64,000 nt of DNA from Thiosulfativibrio zosterae (GTDB lineage: Bacteria > Pseudomonadota > Gammaproteobacteria > Thiomicrospirales > Thiomicrospiraceae), in contig NZ_AP021888.1 of assembly GCF_011398155.1 (NCBI RefSeq), positions 2,454,001 through 2,518,000 on the forward strand, written 5' to 3'. Under the pieces are notes generated by a model that saw nothing but the letters and a program-made list of their open reading frames with translations, had not been told where the DNA came from and did no database searches. Shown here piece after piece: positions 45,363-64,000 of this stretch. A program made the translations under genes and the position numbers. Within the stretch, counting starts at the first letter, position 1; the number at the start of each line of letters is the position of its first letter.

Positions 45363-47147
45363 ATGACTTATTTTGGCAACAATAATCTTAATTCGGATTT
45401 TGATAAGGCTTACCATAAGCTTCTTGATGAAATAGTCAGTCAAACCTCAGTCGCTTTTTACGTTCTAAATCTAAAAAACCATTCAATTGAGTTTACGAAT
45501 AACGCATTCAACTCTCTATTTGCCTGCCAATCTGGTTATTTTCATAAAAAAGATTTTAGCCTTTTCAAAGACTTTTTAACCGAAGAAGATTATCTTTGTT
45601 TCTTTAAGATTCATTTTCAAAGTTACATTCGATTGACACGAGCGAAGCCTAATAAGACGGTTCAAGAAATTAATATATTGGATAAAAATCTTAAGCAAAG
45701 AACATTAAAAGTTTCAATATCTTCATTATCTCTTTCCCAAGATTGTAAACCTAGCCATGTCTTAGTTCAGTTAATAGATATTACAATTCAAAAGAACCGA
45801 GAGAAAGAACTTATAGAATCTGAAAAGATTTTACATTTCATATCACATCATGATGCCCTTACAGAATTACCCAATCGAAAATTGTTAATCCACTATTTGA
45901 ATGACAGTATTTTAGATTTTGAAAAAAAACAAGAAGGTTTTACAGTCATTTTCTTTGATATTGATAATTTTAAAAATATTAATGATAGCTATGGTCATAA
46001 AGTTGGAGATTCTGTTTTATTGGCTTTCAGCCAGCGTATAAAAGAAGTTATCTACCCAGGCGATATTTTAGGGCGCCTTGCCGGAGATGAGTTTGTACTG
46101 ATTGCTTTTAATGTGTCTACAGATCAGCAAATAGAAAGCCTTGCGAAAAAGATAATCTTACAATTTAAAAAAATGATTGAAATTGATGAATTAAAATTTT
46201 TAGTAACTTGCAGCTTAGGCATCAGCAAATTTCCAGATGATGGTAAGACTCCCGGCGACCTTATCAAAAATGCAGATATAGCCATGTATCATGCAAAAAG
46301 AAATGGCAAAAATTTTTATAAAACATACGAACCAAATATGACTCTGGAAATTTTTAAGCGACTTGAAACTGAAAGAGAGATGATGAATGCCATTAATGAG
46401 GAACAGTTCGAAGTATATTATCAGCCACAAGTAAATATAAATACGAATGAAGTCGTTGGACTAGAAGCATTAATCCGATGGAATCATCCAACAAAAGGAC
46501 TGATTAATCCAGACGACTTCATTCCCATCGCAGAAGAATTGCGTTTAATCATTCCCTTAGGTGAGTTTGTATTTCATCGGTCTTGCCAACAAGTACAAAC
46601 GCTCATAGATGAGAATCTTTTTAATGGATATCTCTCAATAAATGTTTCAGGCGTTCAAATAGAACGAGGGAATTTTGTTGAATTTGTTAAGGACTCATTA
46701 GGAAAAACCCTTTTTGAACCCACAAAAATTGAGTTAGAAATTACAGAATCTGTGATTATGAATGATACAAAAAGCTGGATTGACGTTTTGAATAATTTAA
46801 AGAGTATTGGATGTAAAGTTGCCATTGATGATTTTGGAAAAGGTTACTCTTCATTAACACATCTTTCTAATTTGCCCATCGATAAAATCAAAATTGATAA
46901 AGCATTTATTGATGACATATCAGAAACCCAGAATTCCAGATTAATCACTGAAATTGTTATGTTTTTAGCTAAAAAAATGGATTTAACGCCTTTCGCTGAA
47001 GGCGTTGAAAGTGAAGTTCAAAGAGATATTTTAATGTCATTAGGCTGTGAATTTGTTCAAGGCTACTTTTTCAGCAAACCAAAATCATTTAATGACATTA
47101 AAAACTGGCTCAAAAGTGTTAGAGATACTCAATGCCTAGAAAACTAG
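45363..47147 (+). CDS. PAS-GGDEF-EAL c-di-GMP protein
   Basis: A 594-residue cytoplasmic protein. A PAS-like sensor fills about 15-145, followed by a short coiled linker, a GGDEF domain whose signature is A-G-D-E-F at 240-244 (a variant known from active cyclases), and an EAL domain with E-A-L-I-R-W (Glu368), S-I-N-V-S-G, I-T-E-S, D-D-F-G-K-G, K-I-D-K-A-F and A-E-G-V-E. The EAL part looks fully competent. It stands alone to the right of the exopolysaccharide locus, so control of polymer production is plausible but not shown. Confidence 0.93.
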   Translation: MTYFGNNNLNSDFDKAYHKLLDEIVSQTSVAFYVLNLKNHSIEFTNNAFNSLFACQSGYFHKKDFSLFKDFLTEEDYLCFFKIHFQSYIRLTRAKPNKTVQEINILDKNLKQRTLKVSISSLSLSQDCKPSHVLVQLIDITIQKNREKELIESEKILHFISHHDALTELPNRKLLIHYLNDSILDFEKKQEGFTVIFFDIDNFKNINDSYGHKVGDSVLLAFSQRIKEVIYPGDILGRLAGDEFVLIAFNVSTDQQIESLAKKIILQFKKMIEIDELKFLVTCSLGISKFPDDGKTPGDLIKNADIAMYHAKRNGKNFYKTYEPNMTLEIFKRLETEREMMNAINEEQFEVYYQPQVNINTNEVVGLEALIRWNHPTKGLINPDDFIPIAEELRLIIPLGEFVFHRSCQQVQTLIDENLFNGYLSINVSGVQIERGNFVEFVKDSLGKTLFEPTKIELEITESVIMNDTKSWIDVLNNLKSIGCKVAIDDFGKGYSSLTHLSNLPIDKIKIDKAFIDDISETQNSRLITEIVMFLAKKMDLTPFAEGVESEVQRDILMSLGCEFVQGYFFSKPKSFNDIKNWLKSVRDTQCLEN

Positions 47148-47240
47148 TTTGTTCAGGTTTAATGTTATACAGGTATTTAACAATGCGTAATTTTAACGCA
47201 ATCACAATGTTATATTGTTATTATTTTTGTATAATCAAGC

Positions 47241-47507
47241 ATGAATGAAATAAACTGGACAACTAAAGCAATTAAGCAACTGCTGAAGATAGGTGTTTAG
47301 CCAATCAAACAACATATTAAAGATGCTGTCGAACAAGAATTGGCTGACTTTTCAAATTCACGCAACGTTAAAAAACTAAAGAATCATGATTATGATTAAC
47401 GTTTACGGGTAGGTCATTATCGAGTCTTGTTTAATTATTCTGTTAACGGTGTCGTAAATATTGTTACGGTAGAGGAGGTAAAAAAACGAGATGAACGCAC
47501 TTACTAA
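47241..47507 (+). pseudogene. RelE/ParE-like toxin with two in-frame stops
   Basis: The frame from ATG at 47241 gives a RelE-like sequence (M-N-E-I-N-W-T-T-K-A, K-K-L-K-N-H-D-Y, R-L-R-V-G-H-Y-R-V-L-F, V-T-V-E-E-V-K-K-R-D-E). It is broken by TAG at 47298 and TAA at 47397. The first could come from a CAG codon. The frame ends 17 bases inside the downstream antitoxin gene, as in intact toxin-antitoxin operons with toxin first. A perfect TATAAT at 47230-47235 lies just before it. Confidence 0.85.
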
Positions 47508-47835
47508 TGTACAAGTCATTCACCAAGGTGGGCAACCAGCTTTTGTGGTGATTCCTTATGAAGACTATATGAATAGCATTAAGTCTCGCCAAGGTGATGC
47601 GATTGTACCCCATGCCGTGGTTTCTTTAATGATTGACGAAGAAATGACCATTTTTAAAGCTTGGCGTACCTATAAAAAACTAACACAAGCACAGGTAGCG
47701 CAAGCCATGGGCATTGCTCAATCAGCCGTGGCTAGAATTGAATCTGGTAAGCATGAGCCTTCTCTAAGCACCTTAAAATCCTATGCTAAAGCGATTGGTG
47801 TACTACCTGAGCAATTGGATTTAAGCGACAATTGA
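47491..47835 (+). CDS. Xre-type antitoxin left beside a dead toxin
   Basis: A 114-residue protein. The N-terminal 40 residues resemble a Phd-like strand-helix start (Q-P-A-F-V-V-I-P-Y-E-D-Y). The C-terminal part is a helix-turn-helix of the Xre type (T-Q-A-Q-V-A-Q-A-M-G-I-A-Q-S-A-V-A-R-I-E-S-G). It overlaps the decayed toxin frame by 17 bases, the normal order for HigBA/RelBE-like pairs with toxin first. AGGAGG before the ATG is a strong ribosome-binding site. Intact, so it may still repress the operon or neutralise a related toxin elsewhere. Confidence 0.88.
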   Translation: MNALTNVQVIHQGGQPAFVVIPYEDYMNSIKSRQGDAIVPHAVVSLMIDEEMTIFKAWRTYKKLTQAQVAQAMGIAQSAVARIESGKHEPSLSTLKSYAKAIGVLPEQLDLSDN

Positions 47836-47947
47836 TGTTTTTATGATGTCATTGGCAGTGTAAAAATCCCCCCTAACGGCAACTGAAAATTGAACCCTTG
47901 AGTATCATAGCGGTCTTTTGGACCGCATAATTATGTTGACTCAGAAG

Positions 47948-48067
47948 ATGCCTGTGACAATCAATTTACTTTATAAACAAGGCATGGGCATTAAAGTTAT
48001 TGACCGTGGCTGTAAAACTGGGGTAAAAACCCAACAGGTTTTATGGTTTGATGTATCTCAACTTTAA
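47948..48067 (+). pseudogene. IS21-type IstA transposase start fragment
   Basis: Thirty-nine codons with V-T-I-N-L-L-Y-K-Q-G-M-G-I-K-V-I, the beginning of IS21-family IstA helix-turn-helix regions, then unrelated residues and a stop. The 80 bases before it contain G-A-A-A-A-T-T-G-A-A-C-C-C, which resembles IS21-family ends. A 6-bp inverted repeat, GCGGTC/GACCGC, lies at 47910-47926. This is a small remnant of an insertion sequence. Confidence 0.55.
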
Positions 48068-48540
48068 GAGCTAATCACTAACTCTTTTGTAATTAAACAC
48101 TTGCCTCCGATATCTTCAAACACTAAGGTTTTGATGACTGTATCTTGGTAAAGATTGCTTTTATAGTTTTGTTTGAATGTCACCTGGTATTGCTTAGCGT
48201 TGTTTGACCAGGTCTTGTTTTCTGCGCCTATCCAAATATAACCTTTCGGCGCATTAATCCTTTCAGCTCTGAGAGCCTTCCATGCTGCATGAGACATGTT
48301 TTCGGATGCAAAATCAGGTGCATATTGTGCAAGATAAAGATCAACTTTTTTGGTCATCCAAGCATATCGCCAAAAGTCAAAAGTAAGCTCTGCTTTTTGA
48401 CAGGCATTATTTGATCGGTAAGTTTGCGAAGCTATCATTGCATCCGCTACTTCTTTAGACACAGATGATTTCATTGATAGCATCGGTTTTGGACAACTCG
48501 CAAGTCGTTCATCACAACCAACTTTAACCAAGGAGGTCAC
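48064..48540 (-). CDS. NTF2-like lipoprotein, start region damaged
   Basis: A 158-residue frame from GTG at 48540. The C-terminal half (L-Y-L-A-Q-Y-A-P-D-F, R-I-N-A-P-K-G-Y-I-W-I and V-T-F-K-Q-N-Y-K-S) resembles NTF2-like domains found in envelope proteins. The frame is open for ten further codons upstream and reads S-C-T-N-T-Q-E-K-E-K, like the start of a mature lipoprotein after its lipobox. It then hits a TAG and has no signal peptide. The signal region may be frameshifted, so this may be a pseudogene. No partner gene is evident; it ends within the IS21 remnant. Confidence 0.55.
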   Translation of the reverse strand: MTSLVKVGCDERLASCPKPMLSMKSSVSKEVADAMIASQTYRSNNACQKAELTFDFWRYAWMTKKVDLYLAQYAPDFASENMSHAAWKALRAERINAPKGYIWIGAENKTWSNNAKQYQVTFKQNYKSNLYQDTVIKTLVFEDIGGKCLITKELVISS

Positions 48541-48835
48541 TTTTTCTTTTTCTTGAGTATTTGTACAAGACTATGATCTAAAACTAAAAGACTATCTAGA
48601 AAACAAGATTTCTACTTCTCAGGAACTCTTCTTCTGAATAAAGGATGCATTTAGCCATAATTTTTTCTTTTTATGATTAATGTAATTTTTACCATAAAAA
48701 GTGTCTAGTGTTTCTAGGCCTTACCACTAGATCCCCTCAATAAAAAATTAAATGGGTTTGCTTTTTAAAGCCTTTAAATTATGATGACTTTCACAATTGA
48801 AATATGAGATTCTAAAGAATTGAGGGCTCGCTAAA

Positions 48836-51800
48836 ATGTCTAGATATCTACAAATCCTATTGCTACTACTCATCCCATACAGCACCTCTTTTGCAAAAGA
48901 GGCTACCTCTAAAAATCTCATTACATTGACCAATGAAGAAAAAGTTTGGCTTGATGCTCACCCAGTTCTTAATGTAAGTAGTGAACCAGACTATGCTCCC
49001 TGGGATTTTATTGAGGATGGCGAGTCAAAGGGATATTCTGTTGACTACATGAACCTGTTAGCCGAAAAAATAGGGGTGAAGGTTCATTATGAACAAGACA
49101 ATTGGAATAACCTTGTTTCGAAACTTCAAGATGGCCAAATTGATATTGTTCACACCATTTTCAAAAACAATGTTCGAAAAAACGTGGTTTATTCAGAGCC
49201 ATATAAAAAAGTAACCGCCGCACTCTATATCAACACAAAAAGCACTAACCTTAAAAACACGTCTGATATATCAAAACTCGTTATTAGCATCCCTAGAGGT
49301 GACACGACTGCAGATGCATTGATAAAAAAATATCCTAACATTAAGTTGCGCTTGACCAATACCTATACCGAAGCTTTAAAAGATGTTGCCTTTAATAAAT
49401 CGGAGGCTGCTGTATTGGAGTTGGGCGTAGCTAATTACTTAATTAAAGAATTTAACATACCCAATATGAAGGCTATTAATGAGTTCAATGCTGAGGAGTT
49501 AGGATTGGATTATTCGCTTCATTTTGGTGTAGTGGAAAAAAATGCTGTTTTAGTTTCAATTCTGAACAAAGCAATGGATGCGGTTACTCACGAAGAACTC
49601 GCGACATTAGATAAGACTTGGTTATCTTTTGAAACAGAAATTGATTATTCGCTCATCTGGAAAATTCTAGTAGCAGTACTTTTCTTGATGTTAGTTTTCT
49701 CATTTTATAACTACAGACTACGCAATCTTGTCAAAGAAAAGACCAGTGAGCTTCAATCGCTTGTAGATTCTTTTGACCATAATGTCATAGCATCTCGCTC
49801 TGATATCCGAGGAACCATCACTTATGTGACGGAAGCGCTTTGCCAAATTAGCGGTTACTCAAAAGAAGAATTGCTTAATAAACCCCACAATATTTTAAGA
49901 CACCCTGACATGCCGCGTGAAACGTTTGCCGACTTGTGGAATACGATTCAATCGGGTAAAGAGTGGCGAGGCGAAATCAAAAACCGAAAAAAAGATGGCG
50001 GTTTCTATTGGACAGAAGCAATTGTTTCTCCAGAGTTTGACATAAATCAAAATATCGTTGGTTTCAAATCGATTCGCCATGACATTACCGCAAAAAAAGA
50101 AGTTGAAGAACTTACACATTCATTAGAAGAAAAAGTTCAAGAAAGAACTGCTGCTTTAAAACAAAATACCGACTTAATGAGTTATGTTTCTGAAAATGCC
50201 AATCTCGGATTTTGGAATTTCAATCCTCAAGTAGGTGATCTTTTAGTGAATGATGTGTTTGTTAAAATGCTTGGCTATGATCCTCAAGACGTACTCAAAG
50301 AAGATTCTGAAGGCGACATGTTTAAACCCTTTAAAGGTGGTTTAGCATTTTGGAATCAATTGCTTCACCCTGACGATGTTGAACATACTAATAAAGCACT
50401 GATAGGTCATATCAACGGAGAAATCCCTATTTATGATGTAACTTATCGAATGAAAAAAGCGGATGGCAATTACATGTGGTCAACCGCAATTGGACGTATC
50501 TCTAAATATGATCAAGATGGCAAACCCATTAAGTTTGACGGAGTTAACCTTGACATAGATGCCATGAAAAAGGCGCAAGATGAAATTGCACAATTAGAGG
50601 AGCGTAGTCGCTTAGTTCTTTCTGCCGTAGGTGATGGCATCGTAGGTCTGGATACACAAGGCAAAATGACCTTTGCGAACCCAGCAGCACCAAAACTCCT
50701 TGGATATGAGTTGGATGAACTACTTAATAAATCTATGCATGATTTAGTTCATCATACTTACCCTAATGGTAATCATTTCCCTAAAGAAAGCTGTTCAATG
50801 TATCTAACTACCAAAGACGGACAGGCTCGCACCGTTGATGATGAAGTACTGTGGTGCAAAGATGGCACTTCTCTTCCTGTTGAATATTCAACAATGCCTA
50901 TGTACAAAGGAAATGATCTGGTTGGAACAGTGGTGGTATTTAGAGATATCACTGAACGTAAAGCTATGCAACAAGCCATTCTTGCTGAACGCGAACAATT
51001 GCAAATGATTTTAGACACCAGCCCCGTTGGAGTCGCATTTACAGCGAATAGCATTTTTCACTTTACCAACCCTAAATTTGTTGAGATGTTTAATATTCAC
51101 ACCGGTGAGAAAGCACCAGACATTTATGTGAATCTAGAAGAGCGCGATGCAATGTTGCAAAGACTTGACGAAAATGGTCGTGTAGATAATTACGAACTAC
51201 AAATGTACACCCATAATAAAGAAATCCGAGATATGCTTGTGTCTTTCTTGCCTGTTAAATACAACAATGAAAAAGGCATTCTGGGCTGGGTACTTGATAT
51301 CACTGAACGCAAACAACAAGAACAGGCGTTGAAAGAGCATTCAACTTTCTTACAAGCTTTATTGGATACGATTCCTTATCCTGTTTTTTATAAAGATCAT
51401 AAGTCACGCTTTTTGGGTGTTAATCATGCTTATGCCCAAACATTTAATGTTGATCCAAAAGCACTCATAGGTAAAAGAGTACTAGATTTAGACTATTTAC
51501 CCGAGCAAGAACGAATTACCCTTCAAGCTGAGGATGAAGATGTGATTGCAACAGGAGGAGAGTTCAAAAAAGAGATTCAAATTCCTTTTTCAGACGGCCA
51601 ACTTCATGACACGATTCGTTATGTTAAAGCATTTAAAAAAGCGGATGATTCTCCGGGCGGCGTTGTTGGTACCTACACAGATATTACCCCGCTGGTAGAT
51701 GCACGTCGAGCAGCAGAGAATGCAACCAAGGCAAAATCTGACTTTTTGGCGAATATGTCGCATGAAATTCGCACGCCAATGAATGCCATTATCGGTATGT

Positions 51801-53926
51801 CACATCTTGCATTACAAACGGATTTAACTTCAAAACAACGAAATTACATAGACAAAGTTAATCGTGCCGCCGACTCCCTGTTAGGTATTATCAATGATAT
51901 CCTCGATTTCAGTAAAATCGAAGCAGGTAAGTTAGACATTGAAAAAGTCGATTTTAGACTAGAGGATGTCTTTGATAACTTAGCCAGTCTGGTTGGTATG
52001 AAAGCAGATGATAAGGGACTAGAGTTATTGTTTAATGCTAACACAAATATCCCAACAGCTTTGATTGGTGACTCATTACGACTTGGACAAATTATCATTA
52101 ACCTAGGCAATAATGCTGTTAAATTTACCGATGAAGGTGAAATCGTTATTGGTGTTGAAGAAGTCAGTCGCTCTCAAGATCAGGTAGAACTCCACTTTTG
52201 GGTCAAAGATTCTGGCATTGGCTTAACTCCAGAACAACAATCCAAGCTCTTCCAAAGCTTTTCTCAAGCCGATACTTCTACCACCCGAAAATATGGTGGA
52301 ACCGGTTTAGGTCTAGCGATTTCTAAACAACTTGTAGAAATGATGGGAGGCAAGATTTGGGTTGAATCAGAGGCAGGAGAAGGTGCTACCTTCAACTTTA
52401 CCGCCAAATTTGGTTTACAGAAAAATCCACAAGCGCGCCGAGCATACAAAGCAGATGAACTTAAAGGATTGCGTGTTTTAGTGGTTGACGACAATGCCAG
52501 TGCCAGAGAAATACTGTCAACCATGGCTCTCAGCTTTGGACTTGAGGTGGATGTTGCCTTTAATGGGCAACAGGCACTTAAATCCATTGAAGACTCAGAT
52601 AAAAAATCGATTCCATACGACCTCGTTCTTATGGACTGGCAAATGCCGATTATGAACGGTATTGAATGTGTTCACGAGATGCAAAAAATTGGAAACAGTC
52701 ATACTCCTGCCGTCATTATGGTCACCGCTTATGGCCGAGAAGATGCTATGAGCGAGGCCGAGCACCAAAGCGTTCACATTCAATCCGTACTGGCAAAACC
52801 CGTTACACCTTCATCATTGCTTGAAGCAATTGGTGAAGCTTTAGGCAAAGGCGTTGAAATAGGGACTGCAGAAGTTAAGCGCCAAGATACTGCACAAGAA
52901 ACGATGAAAAAACTAGCTGGTGCTAAAATTTTACTGGTTGAAGACAACGAAATGAACCAAGAACTTGCACTAGAGTTGCTCAGACAAGCTGGTATTGAAG
53001 TTACCTTAGCTGAAAATGGCCAAGAAGCACTTGATCGTCTGACTGAAATACACGATTTTGATGGTATTTTGATGGACTGCCAAATGCCCGTGATGGATGG
53101 TTACACCGCCACTAGGGAAATCAGAAAAAATGCCGTATTTACAAAATTGCCTATTATTGCAATGACGGCTAATGCCATGGTTGGTGATAAAGAAAAAGTC
53201 ATTGAAGCTGGAATGAATGATCATATTTCTAAACCTTTAAACGTAGAGGCCATGTTTGCGACGATTGCTCAATGGGTAACACCTGCAAATCCTAAGGAGT
53301 TAGTGACCCCAGAAACGTCTAAAATTTCAGCCCCCCAAGGCTCAATAAACGACCTACCAGGTATCGATACCAATAAAGGGCTTGCTATTTCAATGCAAAA
53401 TATCAAGCTATACACCAAACTCTTGGTTAAGTTTAGAGATGCACAAGCCAATTTTGAGGACAAGTTCAAGGCCGCACAACAAGATGCTGATCCAACTGCA
53501 GCAACTAGAGCTGCACATACCTTAAAAGGCGTTGCTGGAAATATTGGTGCTTTAAGCGTTCAAGCAGCAGCAGCGGAACTGGAAGAAGCATGCAAAAATG
53601 AAGCTGATTCGCTCGTGATTAATACATTACTGCAAAAAACACTAGAAGAACTCTCTCCAGTGATTGATGGATTAAAAGGTGTTGGTGATGAAGCTGTTGA
53701 AGTTCAAGAAAACAATACCGTAGTTGATCCGTCCCTAATAGAACCATTATTAGAAAAACTTAAAATGCTATTGGAAGATGATGATGCTGAAGCTTCTGAT
53801 GTGGTAGAAGAGCTCCTACCGCTAGTGAAAGGCACATCTATGGAAGCCACACTTCGTAAGGTCTCCAACTCTGTTTTAGACTATGAGTTTGAAGAAGCCT
53901 TAGAAGCAATCAATGCATTAGATTAA
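48836..53926 (+). CDS. BvgS-like hybrid sensor histidine kinase
   Basis: A 1696-residue multidomain sensor. A signal peptide is followed by a periplasmic family 3 solute-binding domain (about 30-265) and a membrane helix at about 275-293. Several PAS domains come next ([14 protein letters not shown] and others to about 955). The histidine kinase has phospho-acceptor His976 in [10 protein letters not shown] and the ATPase motifs G-I-G-L and G-G-T-G-L-G-L-A-I. Two receiver domains follow with Asp1267 and Asp1414. A C-terminal HPt domain has His1561 in A-A-H-T-L-K-G. A full four-step phosphorelay is therefore present in one chain. No output regulator is encoded beside it. The ligand is unknown. 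Confidence 0.95.
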
Positions 53927-54058: not shown

Positions 54059-54084
54059 TGTAAAAGTCACGACTTCATCTGACA
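54059..54084 (+). repeat. Left terminal inverted repeat of the IS481-family element
   Basis: 26 bp beginning TGT; it matches the right end in 21 of 26 positions, including 14 identical inner bases (GACTTCATCTGACA). Confidence 0.85.
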
Positions 54085-54158
54085 CTGCTCTTGAAAAAGA
54101 GCAAGTTTCCCGTTTTGATATTAGGTGTCTAATCAAAATCAAAACAAAGGAAACTCAC

Positions 54159-55193
54159 ATGATTAATACTAATCAAAAAATCATCAAACATAAAGTCGGA
54201 TTACTCAATCTTGCAGAAGAACTTGGCAATGTTTCAAAAGCCTGCAAAGTAATGGGCTTATCTCGAGATACTTTCTATCGTTATAAAGCTGCCGTTGATG
54301 ACGGTGGTGTTGATGCTCTAATCGATAAAACCCGCCGGAAACCCAACCTTAAAAACCGAGTAGATGAAGTAACTGAACAAGCCGTTATTCAATATGCGAT
54401 TGACTATCCTGCTTACGGTCAACTTAGAGCAAGCAATGAACTCAGAAAACTCGGTATATTCGTTTCATCTAGTGGCGTGCGCAGTATCTGGATCAGAAAT
54501 GAACTGGCTAACTTCAAAGACCGTTTAAAAGCTTTAGAAGACAAGGTTGCCAACGACGGCATTATTCTGACCGAAGCGCAGGTCGTAGCCCTTGAAAAGA
54601 AAAAGCATGACGATGAAGTCAGCGGTGAAATTGATACTGCCCATCCAGGGTACTTGGGTTCGCAAGATACCTTCTATGTTGGCACCTTAAAAGGTGTTGG
54701 CAGAATCTATCAACAAACCTTTGTCGATACCTACTCAAAAGTAGCGTTTGCTAAGCTTTATGCCACCAAAACACCGATAACAGCGGCAGATACCCTTAAT
54801 GATCGAGTGCTACCATTTTTTGAGCAACACGAACTGCCCATGCTCAGAATCCTGACTGACCGTGGCACTGAGTATTGTGGTAAAGCGGAGCAGCACGATT
54901 ATCAATTATACTTGGCGCTAAATGATATTGAGCACACTAAAACCAAAGTCAAATCACCGCAAACCAATGGCATTTGTGAGCGCTTTCACAAAACCATTTT
55001 GCAGGAGTTTTACCAAATCACTTTCCGCAAAAAGATTTACACATCAATTGAACAACTTCAAACGGACCTGGATGAGTGGATTCATTTTTACAACCATCAC
55101 AGAACTCATCAAGGTAAAATGTGTTGTGGAAGAACACCAATGGAAACATTGGAAGATGGCAAAAAGATATGGGCTGAAAAGTTCGTAGCTTAA
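54159..55193 (+). CDS. IS481-family transposase
   Basis: A 344-residue DDE transposase. The N-terminal helix-turn-helix has G-N-V-S-K-A-C-K-V-M-G-L-S-R-D-T-F-Y, followed by the L-I-D-K-T-R-R linker typical of the family. The catalytic core has Asp in F-V-D-T-Y-S-K, Asp in L-T-D-R-G-T-E-Y and Glu in N-G-I-C-E-R-F-H-K-T. No stop or frameshift is seen, so it may be active. GGAAAC upstream gives the ribosome-binding site. Confidence 0.95.
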   Translation: MINTNQKIIKHKVGLLNLAEELGNVSKACKVMGLSRDTFYRYKAAVDDGGVDALIDKTRRKPNLKNRVDEVTEQAVIQYAIDYPAYGQLRASNELRKLGIFVSSSGVRSIWIRNELANFKDRLKALEDKVANDGIILTEAQVVALEKKKHDDEVSGEIDTAHPGYLGSQDTFYVGTLKGVGRIYQQTFVDTYSKVAFAKLYATKTPITAADTLNDRVLPFFEQHELPMLRILTDRGTEYCGKAEQHDYQLYLALNDIEHTKTKVKSPQTNGICERFHKTILQEFYQITFRKKIYTSIEQLQTDLDEWIHFYNHHRTHQGKMCCGRTPMETLEDGKKIWAEKFVA

Positions 55194-55229
55194 ACTTAAA
55201 CTGACAGACACTCATAAAAAACGGGGAAC

Positions 55230-55255
55230 TGTCAGATGAAGTCTGAATTTCTACA
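55230..55255 (-). repeat. Right terminal inverted repeat of the IS481-family element
   Basis: Reverse complement of the left end with five mismatches, all in the outer half. Confidence 0.85.
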
Positions 55256-55257: not shown

Positions 55258-56817
55258 TTAGAAGCCTTTACTAATAAACTCAAATTAGAAAAACAATCCA
55301 TCCTTAATAACTGCTCTGCAGTTATTCAAATTTCGCTTAGTCTTTGTACCGGAAACAGTTTCAATAAAAATTATCGCATTCGATTAATTTCAAATGAAAC
55401 CGCGTTAATTAATAAAACGATCAACTTGAAAGCGGATTGCACGCAAGTTTACCTACCCTTAACATACAAATACCTAAGTGGACTTGATGAAAACCGTGGA
55501 CAAAACTATCGAACCGATGACTTTATCTGCCTCAACCTACCCCCAAGAATACAAGCCATACTTTTAAAAGCCACCAATATTTGGACCAGCGCTAAAGCTC
55601 AATATGAAGAAATCAATGGCGCTTTAATTGAATATAGTATTCATACGACTGATCAGCACTTAAAATCGTGTCTCAATAGTTTCAATTTGGACGCTAGATT
55701 AACTGCGGAGTTTTTACAACAAGCCATCCAAAATATTTTCTTTAAGGTTTCTAATGGCGACTTTTGGACCCTAGCAGTGCTATCCGGAAACCCTAGAGTG
55801 ATTGGCGCTACACAACTTCACTACACAACTCTCGCAAACCTAAAGCTTTTTGAAGACTACCAAAAAGGCATCAAAGTCATATTTAAAGAAGCCATTGAAC
55901 TACCCCAAAAAAATTCACCCAATCTCTTTATTGGTTATGGCAATCCAATCAGACCCATTAAATCAATTGTGCAAAAGGAACTAAATCACCTTTCAAGCTT
56001 TTTAGCAACTAGGGTTGGGCAAGATTCCATAAAGCTTTCTACTGAAGAACTGATAGAAACCCTAAATCTTGTCATGCTATTTGTAGAAACTTACTGCTCG
56101 TACTTTAACGCCATTCGTAATGTTACCAACCCTTATATTGGCCTTCAATCAATTGATCATGAAGGATTTTGCGCTATTGCAGACAAAATCATTCAGAATG
56201 GCTACAACACTCGCATCATTCCCGTCTTAAAACCTGTTGAAGAAACGCTCAGGCAATTTGAGGACTACATCCTCAGCTTAATGGATGTTTTTAGACGGAA
56301 AAAACTCGCCAAATGGTCTGACTTTTTTGCCGAGAAACTGCAACCAGAATTTAAATGGCGAGGACTGCTTGCACCAAACAGGAATTTTCCGGGTTATTTT
56401 TTGATCAGCCCTGAACTCAAATTAAAAGCGGGAAAGCGCCCAAAAGTAAAGTTTATTCCTTATACACGTAAAGCCGCTCTTAAATTTTATGAAGGAACTG
56501 AGCAATTCAAAAGCCCATTATTTTTGCAGCTAGCTCCAAATGCCAATCGTCATTTTTTGCGCTCGGCGCTTTTAGAGCGCGGAGTCAACCCAGAGTATAT
56601 TGATGAATTTATGGGGCATAGACACTTTGGAACTGAATCGTGGAATCATAACTCTATATTTGATCCTCAAGACTACCGCAAAACCATAAAAGCTGAACTA
56701 TATAAGGTATACGGTGACTTCAAGATTTCACTACCATTTAAACCGAATTCCAAGCAGGTTAGCGATAAGACTAATACTGAATGCCCCGATACAACTCAAC
56801 GTCATTCCAATAGTTAA
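55258..56817 (+). pseudogene. Tyrosine recombinase, start removed by IS481 (GmtY-like)
   Basis: The frame is open from the IS edge to 56817, 519 codons. It has no ATG near its beginning, and a TTG at 55426 is the first annotatable start. The codons before that TTG read like normal protein (L-E-A-F-T-N-K-L-K-L), so the gene once began further left. Arg287 lies in N-A-I-R-N-V. The C-terminal catalytic part has HxxR in N-R-H-F-L-R (His432, Arg435), His454 in M-G-H-R-H and the nucleophile Tyr473 in P-Q-D-Y. The next recombinase starts 3 bases after the stop. Order and size suggest GmtY of gamma-mobile-trio elements; this needs a profile search. It may still be translated from TTG. Confidence 0.75.
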
Positions 56818-56820
56818 AAT

Positions 56821-59800
56821 ATGCACTCATCAAATATAGATACCCTCAAAAAAAAATTAGTCATTCACGCCTTTTGGTCGCAACAAATGGCTGCCAGCTC
56901 AGATTATTATTGCGCGGCGACCACTGCTAAAAAACTGCTTTTAGATATCGCTGTCAATGGCAAGTATCAACGCCGAGAAGAAGATAAAGAAGCGCCTCCA
57001 ATTGCAATGATTTCGCAGTATTTATTGGGCATCTACACCCATGTTAAAGAAGCAAAAACGACACTTTCGCTTCGACCTAATCAAGAATCAAGCTCAGCGC
57101 CAGTAAAAGTTCCCAATAAAAACTTAAGTCCTGCAAGTTTTTACCAATTTCAGAAGGTGATTTTAGACAATGGTACAAGAAATCTGAATCAAACAACCCA
57201 AATACTGGAGTTTATAAATGTTTTGATAGACTTTGGCAATAGCAGCGCCCTATGGCACCTGCCACTCTTTGACACCCTAAAAAAGATTCCTAGACCCAGC
57301 AATCCTTTAGGCACTCAAGAAGACTGGCAAAACTATTTGTATGCCATCGAACTAAAAAATCTTCATTTGAATTTTGTCAGTGAAGCGCTTCAGGAAGCCA
57401 ATCAATTATCTGATGACGTTAAATTAGGCATTATCATCACGGATCTTCTTTTTCAGTCATTTGTGCTTAATGAAAAGCAGCTAATCATGCTGGTTAAACA
57501 GCTTCCAGATGAGGGCAATTATCACTATCAAAATCAACGGTTATTTTTCAATGTGCCAGTAGATGATTTTAATCCAAGCAGACGCGTGTTTATTTCACCC
57601 ATTACAGAGCTCTTAATTCATCGTCTTATTCCTAAAGATTTGATTACAGCCTTTGCTAAAAAAAAGGTTAAGAGCAATCGCTTTGAGAATAAATGCTCAT
57701 CAAAGACCATCCCGTCAAATAAAACGAACCATAAACTTTTTGCTGCTGCCTTGCTTAAGGCACTTGAAGCTTATACGAAGCAACTGGGTATTCCGCGCCA
57801 TTTGCTACCAACGTCTTTATTCGGCATCTGTCGATTCGCAGAAAAAGGACTTTTAGATACGCTTCCTCCAGTTCTGCTTTACAGCACAACTGGAACCTTA
57901 AAGTCGCACAGCTTAAAGCCAAGTGTTTTAGAAAAACTTTATGCTCTTTCTGCAATGAATACGACCATACCCAATGAGTATCAACCAGAAGTTAACAGTG
58001 AAAAATCGCAATATCGTAGTTATGGGCTCACATTGGTTCGCAAGGTTTTTAACCACCCTAGTCGCAAAGTAGATCCAAAAATTCTTCATGCCCAAATTCT
58101 GAATGAGGCACAGCAAATTTTTGGCTTAACACCCAACTTACAATACCTCTTAGACTGGGGGCTATCTCAAGTAAAAGTGTTGCTTGGTAAAAATCGTTTT
58201 GATGTCAGTCCTACTAAAATCCTAGGCAAGCTTGACTCGGTTGCCCGTCATATTTTGGCTGTTTTTCATGAAAGGGATTTACTGGGCGTGTCATCGGAAG
58301 ATCGAGCGAATCTATTTTTAGAGGTGATTGATCAAGCAATTTCAGATCGTAATCTAAATACCATTCAGTACAATCTGCGTGCCTTTAATGTATGGCTTGA
58401 AAAAGCTAAAAAAGCACCACCTATTTTTAATAAGTTAGAAGTGTTTGGTGACCCTAAACTCACGGATATGACGGTTAACAGCAACTTGGTGTCTTTTGAT
58501 GAATATGAAATGGTAAGAGCACACCTTAAAAAGTTGCAAACTGACACCCTGGATTCGCATCAGCAAAATCGTTATGCCATGATGGATTTAATGCTCATAC
58601 TCGGTTTTAAGTGCGGTCTGCGTTCCACTGAAGCTTTTAAGATCAAGGTGAATGACTATATCTATTGCAAAACATCTCCCATTTTAGTTATTCGTGAGAG
58701 TTATGACCGTGAACTTAAAACCACCTCTGCAAAGCGAAGCTTAGAACTGGCCAACCTGTTAACTGCGGATGAAATAGCCGTTATTAATGAGCGTTTTTCC
58801 AAAATCACTCAACAAATCGAAAAAGCAGGTATGCGAGAGCATCAAAAACTGAAAGAACGACTTTATCTGTTTGGTAAAGCATCAGACCTTTCTAAAACTC
58901 CGCCTATTCAGGGCATTAAAACAGAATTAATGAGCTTCTTGCATGAATCCGCTCAGGATCAGACATTGAACTTTCATCATTTAAGGCACTCATTTGCCTC
59001 GTGGCATTTTTTATCCGCCTGCATTGCCGAACTTGATTTGGAGTTAAAGGATACCTTCCAACCTTTTCCAAAAACTCACGAATGGTTAGCATTAGCACAA
59101 GAACGAAAGTTGGCTCTTTTACCAACCTCGTTGAAAAGTAAAAAATACCCCTTTTGGATTGCCATCAAAATGGGCCATGCCAATTTTAAAACGACATTCG
59201 AACACTACGTTCATACAGCAGATATAGTGAATATGCTATTTCAAGAAAAATTAGCACGCGGCTTTTCTTCAAGTTTTTGGGCAACCCTTTCCAAAACTAA
59301 CGACTCTTATCTTCGTAAAAAGAAAGCTGGCATGATTGCTTATGCCTGCCAATATGCAGCTCCTGAAAGTTTAAAACAAAAAATTCAACTTCAGTTAAAA
59401 CGCCATCAAGCTTATCAGTTTAAGGTTACGCAACCCCTGACATTGCCTCCTAAACTAGAAACCTTGTCTGCAGATTGGCATCAAAAAATGCAGGCTTATC
59501 AAGCTTTATTGGAATTGGAGAATCTTGAAAATCTATCAAGAAAAGTGCGTGCAACTGCGAACTATTTCATGGAAATGCCTAAATATCGTTTAAGGGGACT
59601 TAATAGGTCTGAAAGATTGGCGTTTGATCGTTTAGCAACAACATTGGAAGGGATTAATGGTAACGATTTATCTCAAAAGAGCGGATTAACTTTAGACATC
59701 AAAAATGCTCTCAAGGTTTTTGCCCAATGCTTAACCCCGGAATCTAATGACATAACAACCCTTACTTCACAAAGAAACTACCGACTTTTAACCACAGATT

Positions 59801-60096
59801 TGAACAATGCACTTTTGCTTACAAAGCTCATTGGGTGTTTAGCCTTGAAGTTTAAGATTCTAATTCACTTAAAAAAACCTAATACTGAATCAGATGAGGA
59901 CCGTAATCGAGAAGATGTCCATTATTGGGAAAAGCATTTAAATTTAAACCCGCTTCAAATTCATGAACAAGCCAGTTTTCACTCTCACACAGGAAGCCAT
60001 TCCAGAATTGAGATACGAGTGGTGAATGATAAGGACAGAAAGTGTCATTCCTTTTATTATTTAATGACGGCAATTTCAGCATTTTACGACTTTTAA
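56821..60096 (+). CDS. Very large tyrosine recombinase (GmtZ-like)
   Basis: A 1091-residue protein, three times the length of a typical phage integrase. The catalytic domain is in the middle: Arg601 in C-G-L-R-S-T-E-A-F, HxxR in H-H-L-R-H-S (His719, Arg722), His786 in M-G-H-A-N and Tyr796 in F-E-H-Y. All five expected residues seem present, including a Lys in the T-T-S-A-K-R hairpin. The first 550 residues and the last 290 are helical and unrecognised. It is encoded directly after the truncated recombinase and before a small third gene. This layout matches gamma-mobile-trio and, more distantly, Tn554 TnpABC modules. It would integrate or excise the element. Confidence 0.85.
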   Translation: MHSSNIDTLKKKLVIHAFWSQQMAASSDYYCAATTAKKLLLDIAVNGKYQRREEDKEAPPIAMISQYLLGIYTHVKEAKTTLSLRPNQESSSAPVKVPNKNLSPASFYQFQKVILDNGTRNLNQTTQILEFINVLIDFGNSSALWHLPLFDTLKKIPRPSNPLGTQEDWQNYLYAIELKNLHLNFVSEALQEANQLSDDVKLGIIITDLLFQSFVLNEKQLIMLVKQLPDEGNYHYQNQRLFFNVPVDDFNPSRRVFISPITELLIHRLIPKDLITAFAKKKVKSNRFENKCSSKTIPSNKTNHKLFAAALLKALEAYTKQLGIPRHLLPTSLFGICRFAEKGLLDTLPPVLLYSTTGTLKSHSLKPSVLEKLYALSAMNTTIPNEYQPEVNSEKSQYRSYGLTLVRKVFNHPSRKVDPKILHAQILNEAQQIFGLTPNLQYLLDWGLSQVKVLLGKNRFDVSPTKILGKLDSVARHILAVFHERDLLGVSSEDRANLFLEVIDQAISDRNLNTIQYNLRAFNVWLEKAKKAPPIFNKLEVFGDPKLTDMTVNSNLVSFDEYEMVRAHLKKLQTDTLDSHQQNRYAMMDLMLILGFKCGLRSTEAFKIKVNDYIYCKTSPILVIRESYDRELKTTSAKRSLELANLLTADEIAVINERFSKITQQIEKAGMREHQKLKERLYLFGKASDLSKTPPIQGIKTELMSFLHESAQDQTLNFHHLRHSFASWHFLSACIAELDLELKDTFQPFPKTHEWLALAQERKLALLPTSLKSKKYPFWIAIKMGHANFKTTFEHYVHTADIVNMLFQEKLARGFSSSFWATLSKTNDSYLRKKKAGMIAYACQYAAPESLKQKIQLQLKRHQAYQFKVTQPLTLPPKLETLSADWHQKMQAYQALLELENLENLSRKVRATANYFMEMPKYRLRGLNRSERLAFDRLATTLEGINGNDLSQKSGLTLDIKNALKVFAQCLTPESNDITTLTSQRNYRLLTTDLNNALLLTKLIGCLALKFKILIHLKKPNTESDEDRNREDVHYWEKHLNLNPLQIHEQASFHSHTGSHSRIEIRVVNDKDRKCHSFYYLMTAISAFYDF

Positions 60097-60273
60097 AAAA
60101 ACCGATCTCCTACCAAACCTTAAAGTACAACTTTAAGCTTTCACAGTTTCAAGTAATATTTTCATCAAAAAATCAAAAGTACCTAAATTTGAGACCACTT
60201 TAAAAAAGGTAAACAATTTCAAGTTGTATGATTTTCTTGAATCAAGCCAAAATTAAAAACAAGGAAAATCAAA

Positions 60274-60627
60274 ATGAACACCATCGATTACGGCCTAAAA
60301 CTTTTAGCAGAAGGCGCCTCAAGAACGCAAGATATCTTCTTCAGTGAAGTACCTTTCTTGGAGTATGCAAAACTCAACAGCAACACCTACACTTTTGTTG
60401 CAACACATGAGACTCAAAATGACGAATATCTTTCTTCTTTTGACTTTTCTAAGCAATTACTACAAATAATACTCGCTAAAATTAAGGCTGAGAAAAGCTT
60501 GCTTACCAATCAGTCAGGCCTCCCCTACACAATTTATTTAAACTTGCGAGTCAGGCTTGGTAAAGAACAACATGATTTAACTGGCGAACCGTTCATTCCA
60601 TTCGTCATTCAAGAAATCTTGGAGTGA
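60274..60627 (+). CDS. Small third protein of the recombinase trio (GmtX-like candidate)
   Basis: A 117-residue protein with no recognised domain, starting M-N-T-I-D-Y-G-L-K-L-L. It has a predicted mix of helices and strands, no Cys and no membrane segment. AAGGAAA before the ATG is a good ribosome-binding site. Its place as the third gene, 177 bp after the large recombinase, fits GmtX or TnpC, which are small partner proteins. The identity rests on position only. Confidence 0.6.
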   Translation: MNTIDYGLKLLAEGASRTQDIFFSEVPFLEYAKLNSNTYTFVATHETQNDEYLSSFDFSKQLLQIILAKIKAEKSLLTNQSGLPYTIYLNLRVRLGKEQHDLTGEPFIPFVIQEILE

Positions 60628-60878: not shown

Positions 60879-61451
60879 TTAATTCTCTTTTATTAACTTA
60901 GTCAAAATCTCTTTATTCTCTTGCGTTAGCCGCTCACTGTCGAGCAACGCATAGTGCGTTATGCTTCTTTGAAGAATATCAGTCAAGGTCTCTGCCGTTT
61001 CGGGCATAAGCCTTAATAGTCGGCTCTTTATCACGGGTAATAGCAGTTTTAAATACGAATTAATGGATAATACATCTATACCCTCCAACGCCATTATTTC
61101 TAAGCTGGTCACTAAACAGCCATGCGTCAGTTCCGCATCCAGAGGATAGCGTGTGAGCAGGTGTAAGGTCATGGCGCTGATGGCTGAAAATAATCGAGGG
61201 TGGTCATCATCAACAATGCCATAACGAAATTCACTTTGCCAATGGATAATCTGAGCGATTGCATTCTCTTGGCTAACCTTTATCGTGTCTTTTGGTGATA
61301 TAGATAAAAACCACAACAAGACATCTTCCGGATTAGTCTGTTGAAAGCAGTTAACCAACTCATCAAACTTGTGGCGAAGGTGTGCTAAAAAGTCATCCAG
61401 ATTCAGATGTTGTTGCTCAATATCCTGTTGCAGTTCAGCCAGCACTGCCAA
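60879..61451 (-). CDS. Unknown protein, probably the displaced C-terminus of the membrane protein before it
   Basis: A 190-residue, mainly helical frame with no recognised domain. Its only start is a TTG at 61451 without a ribosome-binding site, and an in-frame stop lies just upstream. It overlaps the 576-residue gene by 49 bases in another frame. A one-base slip at the T-run of G-C-T-T-T-T-T-G-G would join the two as P-A-F-L-A-V-L-A-E-L without a break. It is therefore more likely the last part of a protein of about 760 residues, separated by a frameshift, than an independent gene. Confidence 0.6.
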   Translation of the reverse strand: MAVLAELQQDIEQQHLNLDDFLAHLRHKFDELVNCFQQTNPEDVLLWFLSISPKDTIKVSQENAIAQIIHWQSEFRYGIVDDDHPRLFSAISAMTLHLLTRYPLDAELTHGCLVTSLEIMALEGIDVLSINSYLKLLLPVIKSRLLRLMPETAETLTDILQRSITHYALLDSERLTQENKEILTKLIKEN

Positions 61452-63133
61452 AAAGCAGGTTGGACTTCATTGACTTTTTGATACAAAGCTTGGTTTAATC
61501 GTTGTTCTATGTCGTATTCGTAACGATCAACCTCATTGATGTAATTACTCTCAAAAACATCCCTTTCCACAGCTGTCAAGGCTTCTTCATAAGACTCAAC
61601 CGCTAAGACGATACGGGTTAAATGATGCAATGCTGTGACTTGTTTGACTAAATCTGGTTCGTTGGCTTCCTCTTTGTACTGGTCGTAAAGCGCTTGTAAC
61701 TTATCAATATGGACAATCTTCTCACAAGCTTTCCAAAAAACTTGCTGTGTGGTTTCATCAGCAATCGCTAAAGCAATTGCCATAGCAAAATCAGAGGCGT
61801 GGCGAACAATTAATCTCAGTTGAATCTCAGGCCGCTCGCTAATATCGGCCAAAAGCCATGTAAGCGAATGCATATAGTGCTCATCTTGGGCAGGAGAAAG
61901 TTGTTGCAAAGCATTTTGCACTCGCTCGTTTCGCTCCATTAGACTTTCTCGATAGTCGTCAATTTTATCTTCGGGAATACCCATTAAATGCTCGCCAAAG
62001 TGACGAAGCGCATTTTTGTAGAGTGATTTAGCATTCGCCAAATAGCCATGTTGCCGTTCGTCTTTATTTGCAACAATGGTTTCAATCATCCATGCAAAAC
62101 TGTTTTGCTGAAACAGATTCATGTCAGTGTCATCAGCAAGTCTAAAACAGGCATACACGCTTAATTCCATGTCATCGGTATGCAGTTCGGCTGGCTGTTC
62201 CAACAGGCGCTTTAGAAGCGTCAGGTGAAAGTCCAATAGCTGGTCAACTCCTACCTTCCCTTTTTTATCACAGGCAAGCAACCCACTTTTGAGCCAAATA
62301 ATGCTCAAATTACTAGACATCCCCTCTAATGTTGCTGTTTCTAAATAACGCTTTACCCAATTGAGTTTGCGTTGAATATCGTCATCAACCGGATGATAGG
62401 TTTCTATAAACCAACGGGTATTGTCGGGTAGCTCGCTAGTCTTCACACGAAAAGATAAAGCGGCAAACACAGGTAAAAAGTGCTGTACAAAATCATTTAA
62501 AAAACTTTCAAAATCTCGTGCGTCACGTCTGTTTTTTGAATTGTTAATGCTTTGAGTTATCTCTTTTAAATCCCCTAATAAGTTTTCAACAACTACGGGG
62601 AAATCTGAGTGCGGCCTCATGGATAAAGCTTCAAAATAGTGCGTGGTCGATACCATCTGCGCTGTAATGTACGGACTAGTACCACCATGCCATTTGTCTT
62701 GAATGACTTGCAAAGATCGGGGTAAATAAATAACGCTGACCGCTACCAATATCAACACCATGCCCAAGACCGCCATCCATGCGAAAGGCAACAGGGTAAC
62801 TAGGGCTAAAGGCATCGCAAATCCTAAAAACATGAGGATTAACCAACCCAGTTTCGCAAACTTATCCGATAAGCGTAGCATTACTAATGCCCAGCCTATC
62901 AGCAAAGGATAAGTCATCGCAAACCACAACCACTCGGTTTTATCTTGATTGTCATCGGGTGATAACCAAACGCCCAATTGATTACTCATCCATAACCCAA
63001 AAAAGAAAATGGCGGGTAATAGCCTTAACAACCCGAAGGCTAAAGGCTTGATATTTTTCCACTGCCAAAACCGCTCACGGTTGGTAACGGTGGGTAGAAT
63101 AAGTTGCGCATTTTGTTGGATGGGGTTTTCCAT
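61403..63133 (-). CDS. Unknown membrane protein with four N-terminal helices
   Basis: A 576-residue protein. Four hydrophobic helices lie in the first 150 residues or so (around L-L-R-L-L-P-A-I-F-F-F-G, Y-P-L-L-I-G-W-A-L-V-M, L-I-L-M-F-L-G-F-A-M-P and M-V-L-I-L-V-A-V-S-V). A long, acidic, helical cytoplasmic region without recognised motifs follows. A good AAAGGAAA site precedes the ATG. It may be shortened by a frameshift near its 3' end (see the 190-residue frame). It follows a 61-codon frame and a larger unknown gene on the same strand, so the group looks like one operon. Next to a recombinase trio such genes are often cargo, for example defence or competition functions; that is inference. 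Confidence 0.75.
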   Translation of the reverse strand: MENPIQQNAQLILPTVTNRERFWQWKNIKPLAFGLLRLLPAIFFFGLWMSNQLGVWLSPDDNQDKTEWLWFAMTYPLLIGWALVMLRLSDKFAKLGWLILMFLGFAMPLALVTLLPFAWMAVLGMVLILVAVSVIYLPRSLQVIQDKWHGGTSPYITAQMVSTTHYFEALSMRPHSDFPVVVENLLGDLKEITQSINNSKNRRDARDFESFLNDFVQHFLPVFAALSFRVKTSELPDNTRWFIETYHPVDDDIQRKLNWVKRYLETATLEGMSSNLSIIWLKSGLLACDKKGKVGVDQLLDFHLTLLKRLLEQPAELHTDDMELSVYACFRLADDTDMNLFQQNSFAWMIETIVANKDERQHGYLANAKSLYKNALRHFGEHLMGIPEDKIDDYRESLMERNERVQNALQQLSPAQDEHYMHSLTWLLADISERPEIQLRLIVRHASDFAMAIALAIADETTQQVFWKACEKIVHIDKLQALYDQYKEEANEPDLVKQVTALHHLTRIVLAVESYEEALTAVERDVFESNYINEVDRYEYDIEQRLNQALYQKVNEVQPAFWQCWLNCNRILSNNI

Positions 63134-63154
63134 AGTTTCCTTTGGTGCGTTCTA

Positions 63155-63340
63155 TCATTTGCGCAGCGTTTTGTACTGCTCCATAAAGGTTTCAGGTTGT
63201 TGCACGGCGAGTTGTTTGGCTGCGATTAGTTCTTGTTTAAACCAGTCTTGGGTTCGTTGATTTAGCTGATTGATAAATAATCGAGTAAGTCGAGGCTGGC
63301 GTTGGGCCAGTGGCTCTAATGCCACACGCCCCATTAACAT
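63155..63340 (-). CDS. Short frame following an in-frame stop, possibly the tail of the upstream gene
   Basis: Sixty-one codons in exactly the same frame as the preceding gene, separated from it only by TAA (63353-63355) and four codons. No ribosome-binding site precedes its ATG. The sequence looks like protein (R-L-F-I-N-Q-L-N-Q-R-T-Q-D-W-F). It may be read-through sequence of a gene broken by a nonsense change, or the remnant of a local duplication, because it shares the 16-bp repeat coding V-Q-Q-P-E with the upstream gene. Confidence 0.4.
   Translation of the reverse strand: MLMGRVALEPLAQRQPRLTRLFINQLNQRTQDWFKQELIAAKQLAVQQPETFMEQYKTLRK
63190..63205. repeat. 16-bp direct repeat TTTCAGGTTGTTGCAC, copy 1
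   Basis: Codes V-Q-Q-P-E on the minus strand within the 61-codon frame. The second copy is 283 bp to the right in the same reading frame phase. Confidence 0.8.
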
Positions 63341-63352
63341 TAAATTTTTGCA

Positions 63353-64000
63353 TTACAACACACTTAATAAACGTTGTTTGAATGCTTCATATTCCTCGCC
63401 ATACTCACGGTTGTTTTTAAATAACTGTGTTTTCAAATCTGCGATTTCTTTATCAATGTCCATTTCAGGTTGTTGCACAAGAAAGGCGTGATAATCACTT
63501 ATATCCTTAAAAAGATTTTCTTCAAAAGCAGACCATCGAATCACCTGATAGGTGATTAATGCTTGAAAGTAGCGATTCGCCAAGTCTGGATTGCTCTCAT
63601 TTTGTGCTTCAGTAATCAGGTTCTTAAAAACATCTCTTTCAAAACCATCAAAAGGAACTTTTTTGCCACTACCGCCATCTAGTATATAAGCATAACTGGG
63701 TTGTTTTTGTGTGCGGTTAATTGTTCGAATCGCTAAACACGTTTGATAAGCTTCTTCAAGGGCATCTAAGTCGGCATAAGTGATTTCTGGCATAGGTTCT
63801 TCGCTGTACCAGTCCAACAATAATGTTGCCAACCGCTCATACAAGGGTAATTTCTGTTGGATGATAGCAATCGTGGTCGCTGTTATCTGTCGATGCGTGG
63901 CATCGGGTTCGATGATTGCGTTGCTTGGTGTTTGTGCTAATTGCTGTTCGGTAATGCTTGTTAATAGCTCAAAAACTTGGGGGTTGTGATAGGCAGACTC
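63353..64000 (-). CDS. Unknown soluble protein, N-terminus beyond the window
   Basis: The frame is open from the right edge to the stop at 63353, 215 codons, so the TTG at 63844 is not the true start. The sequence is helical and acidic, with a run of aromatic residues at L-L-L-D-W-Y-S-E-E and a middle segment containing L-D-G-G-S-G-K-K-V-P-F-D-G-F. I recognise no family. It precedes the 61-codon frame and the membrane protein on the same strand, with gaps that suggest one transcript. Its codon use does not stand out from the neighbours by eye. Confidence 0.7.
   Translation of the reverse strand, partial: ESAYHNPQVFELLTSITEQQLAQTPSNAIIEPDATHRQITATTIAIIQQKLPLYERLATLLLDWYSEEPMPEITYADLDALEEAYQTCLAIRTINRTQKQPSYAYILDGGSGKKVPFDGFERDVFKNLITEAQNESNPDLANRYFQALITYQVIRWSAFEENLFKDISDYHAFLVQQPEMDIDKEIADLKTQLFKNNREYGEEYEAFKQRLLSVL
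63473..63488. repeat. 16-bp direct repeat TTTCAGGTTGTTGCAC, copy 2
   Basis: Lies in the gene at the right edge and also codes V-Q-Q-P-E on the minus strand. Confidence 0.8.

Follow-up and report, generated by a model that had tools for sequence, protein, structure and literature searches.

We analysed a window of 64,000 nucleotides, that is, the whole stretch from position 2,454,001 to position 2,518,000 of contig NZ_AP021888.1 of the sulfur-oxidising bacterium Thiosulfativibrio zosterae, and within it a locus of three genes which lie on one common strand at positions 55258-60627. The first gene, Y (55258..56817, + strand), is the remnant of a degenerate tyrosine-recombinase-like protein: its frame is open from the edge of an insertion element of the IS481 family, and it keeps the R, K and H motifs. 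The second, Z (56821..60096, + strand), is recognised by homology to Hydrogenovibrio sp. SC-1 as a large tyrosine recombinase of 1091 amino acids (aa) with a full catalytic set. The third, X (60274..60627, + strand), encodes 117 aa and has a counterpart at the same position in SC-1. The initial annotation of this stretch had described two adjacent tyrosine recombinases, one of them of 1091 aa, with a small third gene, and the coordinates of all three were confirmed. We argue below that Y-Z together with X is probably the left-end recombination module of an integrative island of about 37 kb inserted in an essential tRNA gene, that of tRNA-Phe.

Results

Homologues of the three genes

Ten of the 93 genomes compared (that of T. 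zosterae included) match Z at E<=1e-5, and the closest is Hydrogenovibrio sp. SC-1, whose locus consists of an intact Y of 890 aa, a RhuM-like fragment of 130 aa, a Z of 1083 aa and an X of 124 aa. Z is 69-70% identical to its SC-1 homologue over the full length, X is 35% identical to the SC-1 gene occupying the same place, and Y of the window aligns at 69% identity with the intact SC-1 protein from residue 380 onwards, over the C-terminal part of the latter. To judge by this alignment, the window Y lacks the first 379 or so residues of its family. In SC-1 the RhuM-family fragment (L017:8986-9378; PF13310, E 3.6e-16) separates Y from Z; elsewhere among the relatives the two genes overlap or directly adjoin, and in two genomes (G043 and G047) they form a single protein of about 1800 aa. 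These natural fusions support the existence of a Y-Z complex. The match to Z is interrupted by three stop codons in G095 and cut at a contig end in G003.

General libraries recognise these proteins poorly. The Pfam model PF00589 is weak in both recombinases and under its cut-off (Y, E 0.034; Z, E 5.2e-5), while Z matches the PHROGs integrase family phrog_1 (E 1e-9). No NCBIfam model matches Y or X at E<=1, and for Z only XerC (0.0074) and Gins23 (0.029) were returned. X has no match in PADLOC either, its best E values in Pfam and PHROGs (0.0076 and 0.024) are not credible, and among the loci compared its counterpart was found in SC-1 only. This means that X does not look like a core member of a trio. 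A phmmer search of Z against the PDB gave nothing at E<=1, and searches of plasmids gave two weak records for Z and none for the window Y.

Catalytic residues

The residues R601, K633, R722, H786 and Y796 of Z are present in 25 of 25 aligned homologues and H719 in 23 of them. By these residues Z is catalytically complete, and it would be an active recombinase. The picture is different for Y (SC-1 numbering): R665, K688 and H832 are conserved in 26 of 26 proteins, H810 in 21 and R813 in 19, but at the aligned position 840 the 26 proteins have Trp (15), Phe (4), Tyr (2) or other residues (5), and positions 841-842 are never Tyr. Hence the near-complete catalytic set which had been ascribed to both recombinases is borne out for Z, where it is full, and is doubtful for Y, which has no conserved Tyr; Y is presumably the catalytically inactive partner of Z.

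The tRNA-Phe gene and the ends of the island

In SC-1, G036, G028 and G003, a tRNA promoter and the 5' part of a tRNA-Phe gene, ending at the anticodon arm, stand upstream of Y. We searched the 62 genomes of the family with an exact tRNA-Phe pattern, a strict search in which 26 of the 62 genomes gave no match at all. More than one match was obtained in eight genomes (G003, G019, G024, G028, G036, G043, G044 and G095), and in every one of these eight the extra copy is a displaced half situated upstream of Y and on the same strand, although in G024 what it precedes is only a remnant of Y. The distance from the displaced half to Y is 174-218 bp in seven of these genomes and 590 bp in G044. An intact tRNA-Phe gene follows downstream on the same strand, at 17.1 kb in G044, 28.2 kb in G036, 35.2 kb in G028, 40.6 kb in G043 and 60.6 kb in G024; island lengths are taken from these five islands, which have both ends on one contig, the remaining ends being on separate contigs. 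ARAGORN confirms the intact gene in the genome of T. zosterae (G000) and in G036, G044, G028, G003, G019 and G032. The T. zosterae genome has a single match, which is intact, at C1:2546569-2546644, with about 32 kb between it and X on its left and 37 kb between it and the insertion element. In the relatives, the island is enclosed between the displaced promoter and 5' part of the host's tRNA-Phe gene on one side and a rebuilt, intact tRNA-Phe gene on the other.

A comparison of G036 with G038, which has an empty site, shows how this arrangement arose. G038 has no match to Z or to the integrase gene int described below, and it has flanking genes in common with G036 (684 aa, 98%; 116 aa, 84%). 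The 51 bp before the displaced half of G036 are identical at 50 of 51 positions to the region before the native tRNA-Phe of G038, whereas the region before the intact tRNA-Phe of G036 matches it at just 38 of 54. This shows that the host's tRNA-Phe gene was split, and that it was the island which brought the promoter and 5' part now found in the working copy. In G036 the 684-aa gene and the displaced half have about 6 kb between them, occupied by other genes, so that the left flank does not run on without a break.

Four consecutive genes of the window (40447-44882) match, in the same order and at 62-87%, the genes upstream of the tRNA-Phe of G046. Other genes (45363-53926) lie in the window between this block and the insertion element, and G046 itself bears a partial scar of the right end, so G046 supports the locus but does not represent a virgin site. 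The flank gene at 61403-63133, searched in 58 family genomes, was found in its own genome and in one other at 24-27%, and no empty site could be derived from it. Taken together, the relatives have everything by which a tRNA-integrated island is recognised, that is, an intact gene with a fragment, an integrase inside and an empty site; in the window copy the intact one alone of the two tRNA ends survives. The initial annotation had also considered that close relatives might have these genes in an identical position as a core segment. Diverged versions do occur in relatives at the tRNA-Phe site, but as variable islands and not as a core segment.

Five of the displaced halves have shared deletions on the 5' side of the anticodon stem, of 1 nt in G019, G024 and G036 and of 3 nt in G028 and G044.

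The right end

In T. zosterae the right end, with the genes int, xis and a helix-turn-helix (HTH) gene followed by tRNA-Phe, occupies G000:C1:2543073-2546644, equivalent to window positions 89073-92644, the int-xis-HTH module itself being 2543073-2546426. The product of int (2544460-2545791) has both the Arm-DNA-bind_2 domain (PF12167, E 1.6e-20) and the Phage_integrase domain (PF00589, E 5.7e-18), and the HTH protein matches PF13443. A 344-aa HD protein, a possible relaxase such as an integrative mobilizable element would have, matches TraI_2 (E 4.7e-7) and, far under the cut-off, MobH (E 5.6e-10; 38.7 of 200 bits), in its HD region only. The genes int and xis and a divergent HTH gene stand directly before the intact tRNA-Phe in nine of ten right ends (G000, G036, G024, G028, G044, G043, G095, G019 C28 and G032), and the HD gene is present at seven of the ten, not having been found at G036, G024 and G003.

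Three short direct repeats precede the promoter, as seen by eye, at 9 of 9 right ends, with lower counts by pattern search for some of them. They are absent from 8 of 12 island-free sites and present in full or in part at the other four (G040, G045, G037 and G046), which are not virgin. These repeats may be arm-type integrase sites. Full or partial repeats without an adjacent int were seen upstream of tRNA-Phe at L091, L097, L098 and L101. Such scars have apparently been kept because they now carry the promoter of tRNA-Phe.

Loss of the left end in T. zosterae

The place of the left end of the island is taken in the window by the IS481-family element, of 1197 bp (54059..55255, + strand; NF033577, E 3.4e-86), whose ends were fixed through five identical copies in the genome, that of the window counted. 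A 7-bp target duplication is found at all four other copies, but the window copy has none (CTTTATC / CATTAGA), which means that its insertion was accompanied or followed by an adjacent deletion. The element and this deletion removed the displaced tRNA fragment, the promoter of Y and 379 codons; the pattern search gives no tRNA-Phe match in the window itself. The first gene had been said to have lost its start to an IS481 element, and both the match to NF033577 and the alignment of Y from residue 380 of SC-1 agree with this. It had further been suggested that the island is locked in place. With its whole left end gone, the window island can probably no longer excise, since the left attachment site would be missing.

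Association of int with Y-Z in the family

In the 62 family genomes, int was found in 12 (E<=1e-30) and Z in 12 (E<=1e-10), with both present in 11 (Fisher p 2.8e-10, an optimistic value, the genomes being related). There are two exceptions. G003 (85% complete, 290 contigs) has Z and no int, with xis and HTH genes at a contig end upstream of the displaced half, and G024 has int, the displaced half and the Y remnant, followed by transposase-like open reading frames (named by eye). The genes int and Y-Z are convergent in all nine islands for which both ends can be assigned on one contig (G000, G024, G028, G036, G040, G043, G044, G047 and G019 C4; the island on SC-1 C20 was left out). Repeats of the int end lie directly upstream of the displaced half in SC-1 C20 and in G003, which suggests tandem elements there. 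G040 carries a second int with no Z nearby.

A related element on G019 C4 is flanked by a direct repeat of 159 bp (95.6% identity) whose first bases, judged by eye, fall within the anticodon loop of a tRNA-Arg(TCT), the intact tRNA-Arg being again on the int side. A fragment beside Y in G047 resembles, by eye, the 5' half of a tRNA-Arg(CCG); ARAGORN found no tRNA in the joined flanks and this case was not counted.

We also observed that a 36551-bp contig of SC-1 (L031/L032) contains an exact tandem duplication with a period of 19,093 bp, positions 1-11403 being the same as 19094-30496, and that at one junction the -10 region of tRNA-Phe is joined to a truncated second Y gene. This could be a real amplification or an effect of assembly.

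Wider distribution and cargo

In wider searches, the Z profile at E<=1e-20 matches 7 of 369 genomes of the class and 16 of 398 genomes of the phylum, the T. zosterae genome being counted in each. The flanks of 16 extra-family loci were retrieved, some on short contigs: six class genomes (6/6), eight phylum loci and two plasmids. Where int lies nearby, it is convergent with Y-Z at five loci and on the same strand at one (G519). In one genome (G536; L184, L185) a distance of about 33 kb separates two Y-Z modules of opposite orientation; each Y is preceded by a small gene, and no int was found within the 20 kb fetched. A gene of 158-180 aa, ParB-like by eye, precedes Y at L150, L184, L185, L186 and L190, and PF02195 matches it weakly in one of the five (E 0.02). 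X shows no similarity to the small gene before Y of three distant relatives.

The cargo of the window island starts at 60879..64000 (- strand), with genes pointing towards Y-Z, and continues to about 89000 in window-equivalent positions. It encodes (G000:C1 ~2517000-2543000; L033, L049) TPR-CHAT and CHAT proteins, CHASE2, a secretin, ankyrin and LRR proteins, an AAA-ATPase with PDDEXK_9 and an IetA-like ATPase (PADLOC, E 7.8e-35). By eye, neighbours or cargo resembling BREX-type genes and copper or heavy-metal resistance genes were seen at L025 (G019 C29), L124 (G047), L022 (G036) and L052 (G028).

Discussion

The displaced tRNA-Phe halves and the right ends of the relatives bear out the view of the initial annotation that these genes form a recombinase module belonging to a mobile island. 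If they act as the left-end module of a tRNA-Phe island, Int and Xis would recombine the tRNA-Phe gene with the attachment site of the element, and in the integrated state the captured tRNA-Phe promoter of the host would transcribe Y-Z. An active Z and an inactive Y would then, as a complex, serve the element's own recombination or processing, by assisting Int and Xis or by performing a further step. Going beyond this, we suggest, tentatively, that these islands form a distinct and apparently undescribed class of gammaproteobacterial integrative elements, in which each end has a recombination system of its own and both systems are needed for movement. It is conceivable, if short of probable, that the two systems divide as follows: Int and Xis rebuild the tRNA with a new promoter, and a giant pair made of a dead Y and a live Z operates under the captured one.

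Several observations weigh against the reading as a left-end module of a tRNA-Phe island. The clean empty site is that of the G036/G038 pair, and the 62 family genomes hold no other member of the genus of T. zosterae. In most islands, though not in G036, the two ends agree wholly or almost wholly in the stretch from the -10 box to the tRNA, and an identical leader at both ends is not what a single crossover in the anticodon loop would lead one to expect; the crossover may take place 5' of the loop, or gene conversion may be involved. The right end of G003 has no int in the approximately 1.4 kb before its tRNA-Phe. In SC-1 C20 the sole int adjoins the displaced half and diverges from Y-Z; on our reading this int belongs to a tandem neighbour. 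Outside the family, int is near Y-Z at only 6 of the 16 loci (G082, G115, G172, G304, G519 and G802a). As regards the proteins, 11 of 26 Y sequences, among them the window Y and that of SC-1, have Tyr at position 851, which is 19 residues past the last His, and the others have Phe, Val or other residues there, so that an unusual nucleophile in Y is possible. Finally, the AlphaFold models of Y and Z, made from alignments of three rows, have a mean pLDDT of 39 and 36 and are unusable.

The alternative which survives best is that Y-Z is cargo, or a separate transposon which happens to lie near the left end, that Int and Xis alone move the island, and that Y-Z has another job, for instance keeping further elements out of the site. 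We consider it rather unlikely. It is consistent with the complete integrase domains of Int, with the Xis and HTH partners of this protein, and with the lack of int in the fetched flanks of 10 of the 16 extra-family loci, such as the two inverted modules of G536, some of these loci being on short contigs. Against it, Y lies at the very edge in all eight genomes which have a displaced tRNA half, the distance to this half being 174-590 bp, and Z occurs together with int in 11 of 12 genomes and converges with it in nine of nine assigned islands.

It is very improbable that the element is a member of the SE, GInt or Tn554 groups. Tn554 has two recombinases and a small protein of about 120 aa in a row, and its TnpABC was one of the two identities proposed initially. 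This one fails by description, the sequences not having been compared: Y has no conserved nucleophile and X was seen in SC-1 alone, whereas in Tn554 two catalytic recombinases, TnpA and TnpB, accompany TnpC according to the Fig. 1 legend of PMC10214605; moreover the Y-Z islands measure 17-61 kb and lie at a tRNA gene. The ginABCD operon of GInts is reported in PMC5385486 to encode three recombinases and one small protein, GinC being without the first catalytic Arg, and to use sites in an ABC-transporter gene with repeats of 10-11 nt. The likeness is that of an operon of several recombinase-like proteins, one of them catalytically degenerate (PMC5385486); the Y-Z operon, by contrast, has two recombinases, with a third convergent at the opposite end, and is set apart from GInts by this description. 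In SEs, according to PMC10214605, a recombinase-fold protein without the catalytic set is found beside a large active one, with overlapping genes and a small auxiliary gene, and an apparently inactive large partner with an active large recombinase recalls Tfp with IntB, or GinC with GinB. SEs have IntA-Tfp-IntB-Srap together at one end and use other target sites, unlike what is seen in the Y-Z islands; further traits by which SEs are recognised are a strand-biased circularization, the lack of an empty site and a 6-bp footprint. Y-Z has no sequence similarity to SE-6945 by BLAST, HMM or HHalign, and the profiles of Y, Z and X do not match its IntA, Tfp, IntB and Srap (best full-sequence E 0.014, 1.6 bits). 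Gene order and gene count differ as well, and a normal Int stands at the opposite end.

The Gamma-mobile-trio consists of two recombinases and a third gene, and the other identity proposed initially was that of a GmtY/GmtZ/GmtX module whose range would thereby be widened. Two adjacent recombinases with a small third gene and a partly defence-like cargo speak for it, and PMC12715929 describes Gamma-mobile-trio elements as rich in defensive and offensive genes. Nevertheless the recomb_GmtY profile (NF040693), which is in the library, does not match Y of the window, SC-1 or G036 at E<=1; it has 441 positions against the 890 aa of intact Y and the 1091 aa of Z. Its one match in the T. zosterae genome lies elsewhere and, at 23.7 of 340 bits, is far under the cut-off; searched in the same way, control genomes also gave matches, in 11 of 14 cases. 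No NCBIfam model named GmtX or GmtZ was found; of the two neighbouring accessions looked at, NF040694 is unrelated and NF040692 ('recomb_assoc') matched nowhere, controls included. As the relatives of Z define a different element, and as the Y-Z islands lie at tRNA-Phe with Int at the other end, this identity can hardly be maintained.

The better reading is that the island is of a known kind, that of tRNA islands which leave a displaced 5' fragment, and that it has in addition a second pair of recombinases, which is unusual; the family name given to it was wrong. PMC4383910 reports a displaced 5' fragment in 159 of 3919 tRNA-gene islands found by Islander, and describes a split tRNA, a displaced 5' fragment, a rebuilt tRNA opposite, an internal tyrosine integrase and tandem arrays, all of which are found here; unlike the islands described there, ours have a giant recombinase pair abutting the displaced fragment, downstream of the displaced tRNA promoter. 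The literature matches listed for Hydrogenovibrio/Thiomicrorhabdus islands, anticodon-loop islands and multi-recombinase elements include no description of a Y-Z element.

Few islands leave a displaced 5' fragment and so restore the tRNA gene with a new 5' part. The present islands are a whole family which does this at tRNA-Phe and which keeps a second, giant recombinase pair behind the very promoter it displaces. Exact island ends are now given for Hydrogenovibrio and its relatives, and it becomes a testable question whether large pairs of an inactive and an active recombinase, of the sort seen in SEs and GInts, serve integrative elements in general as a second engine.

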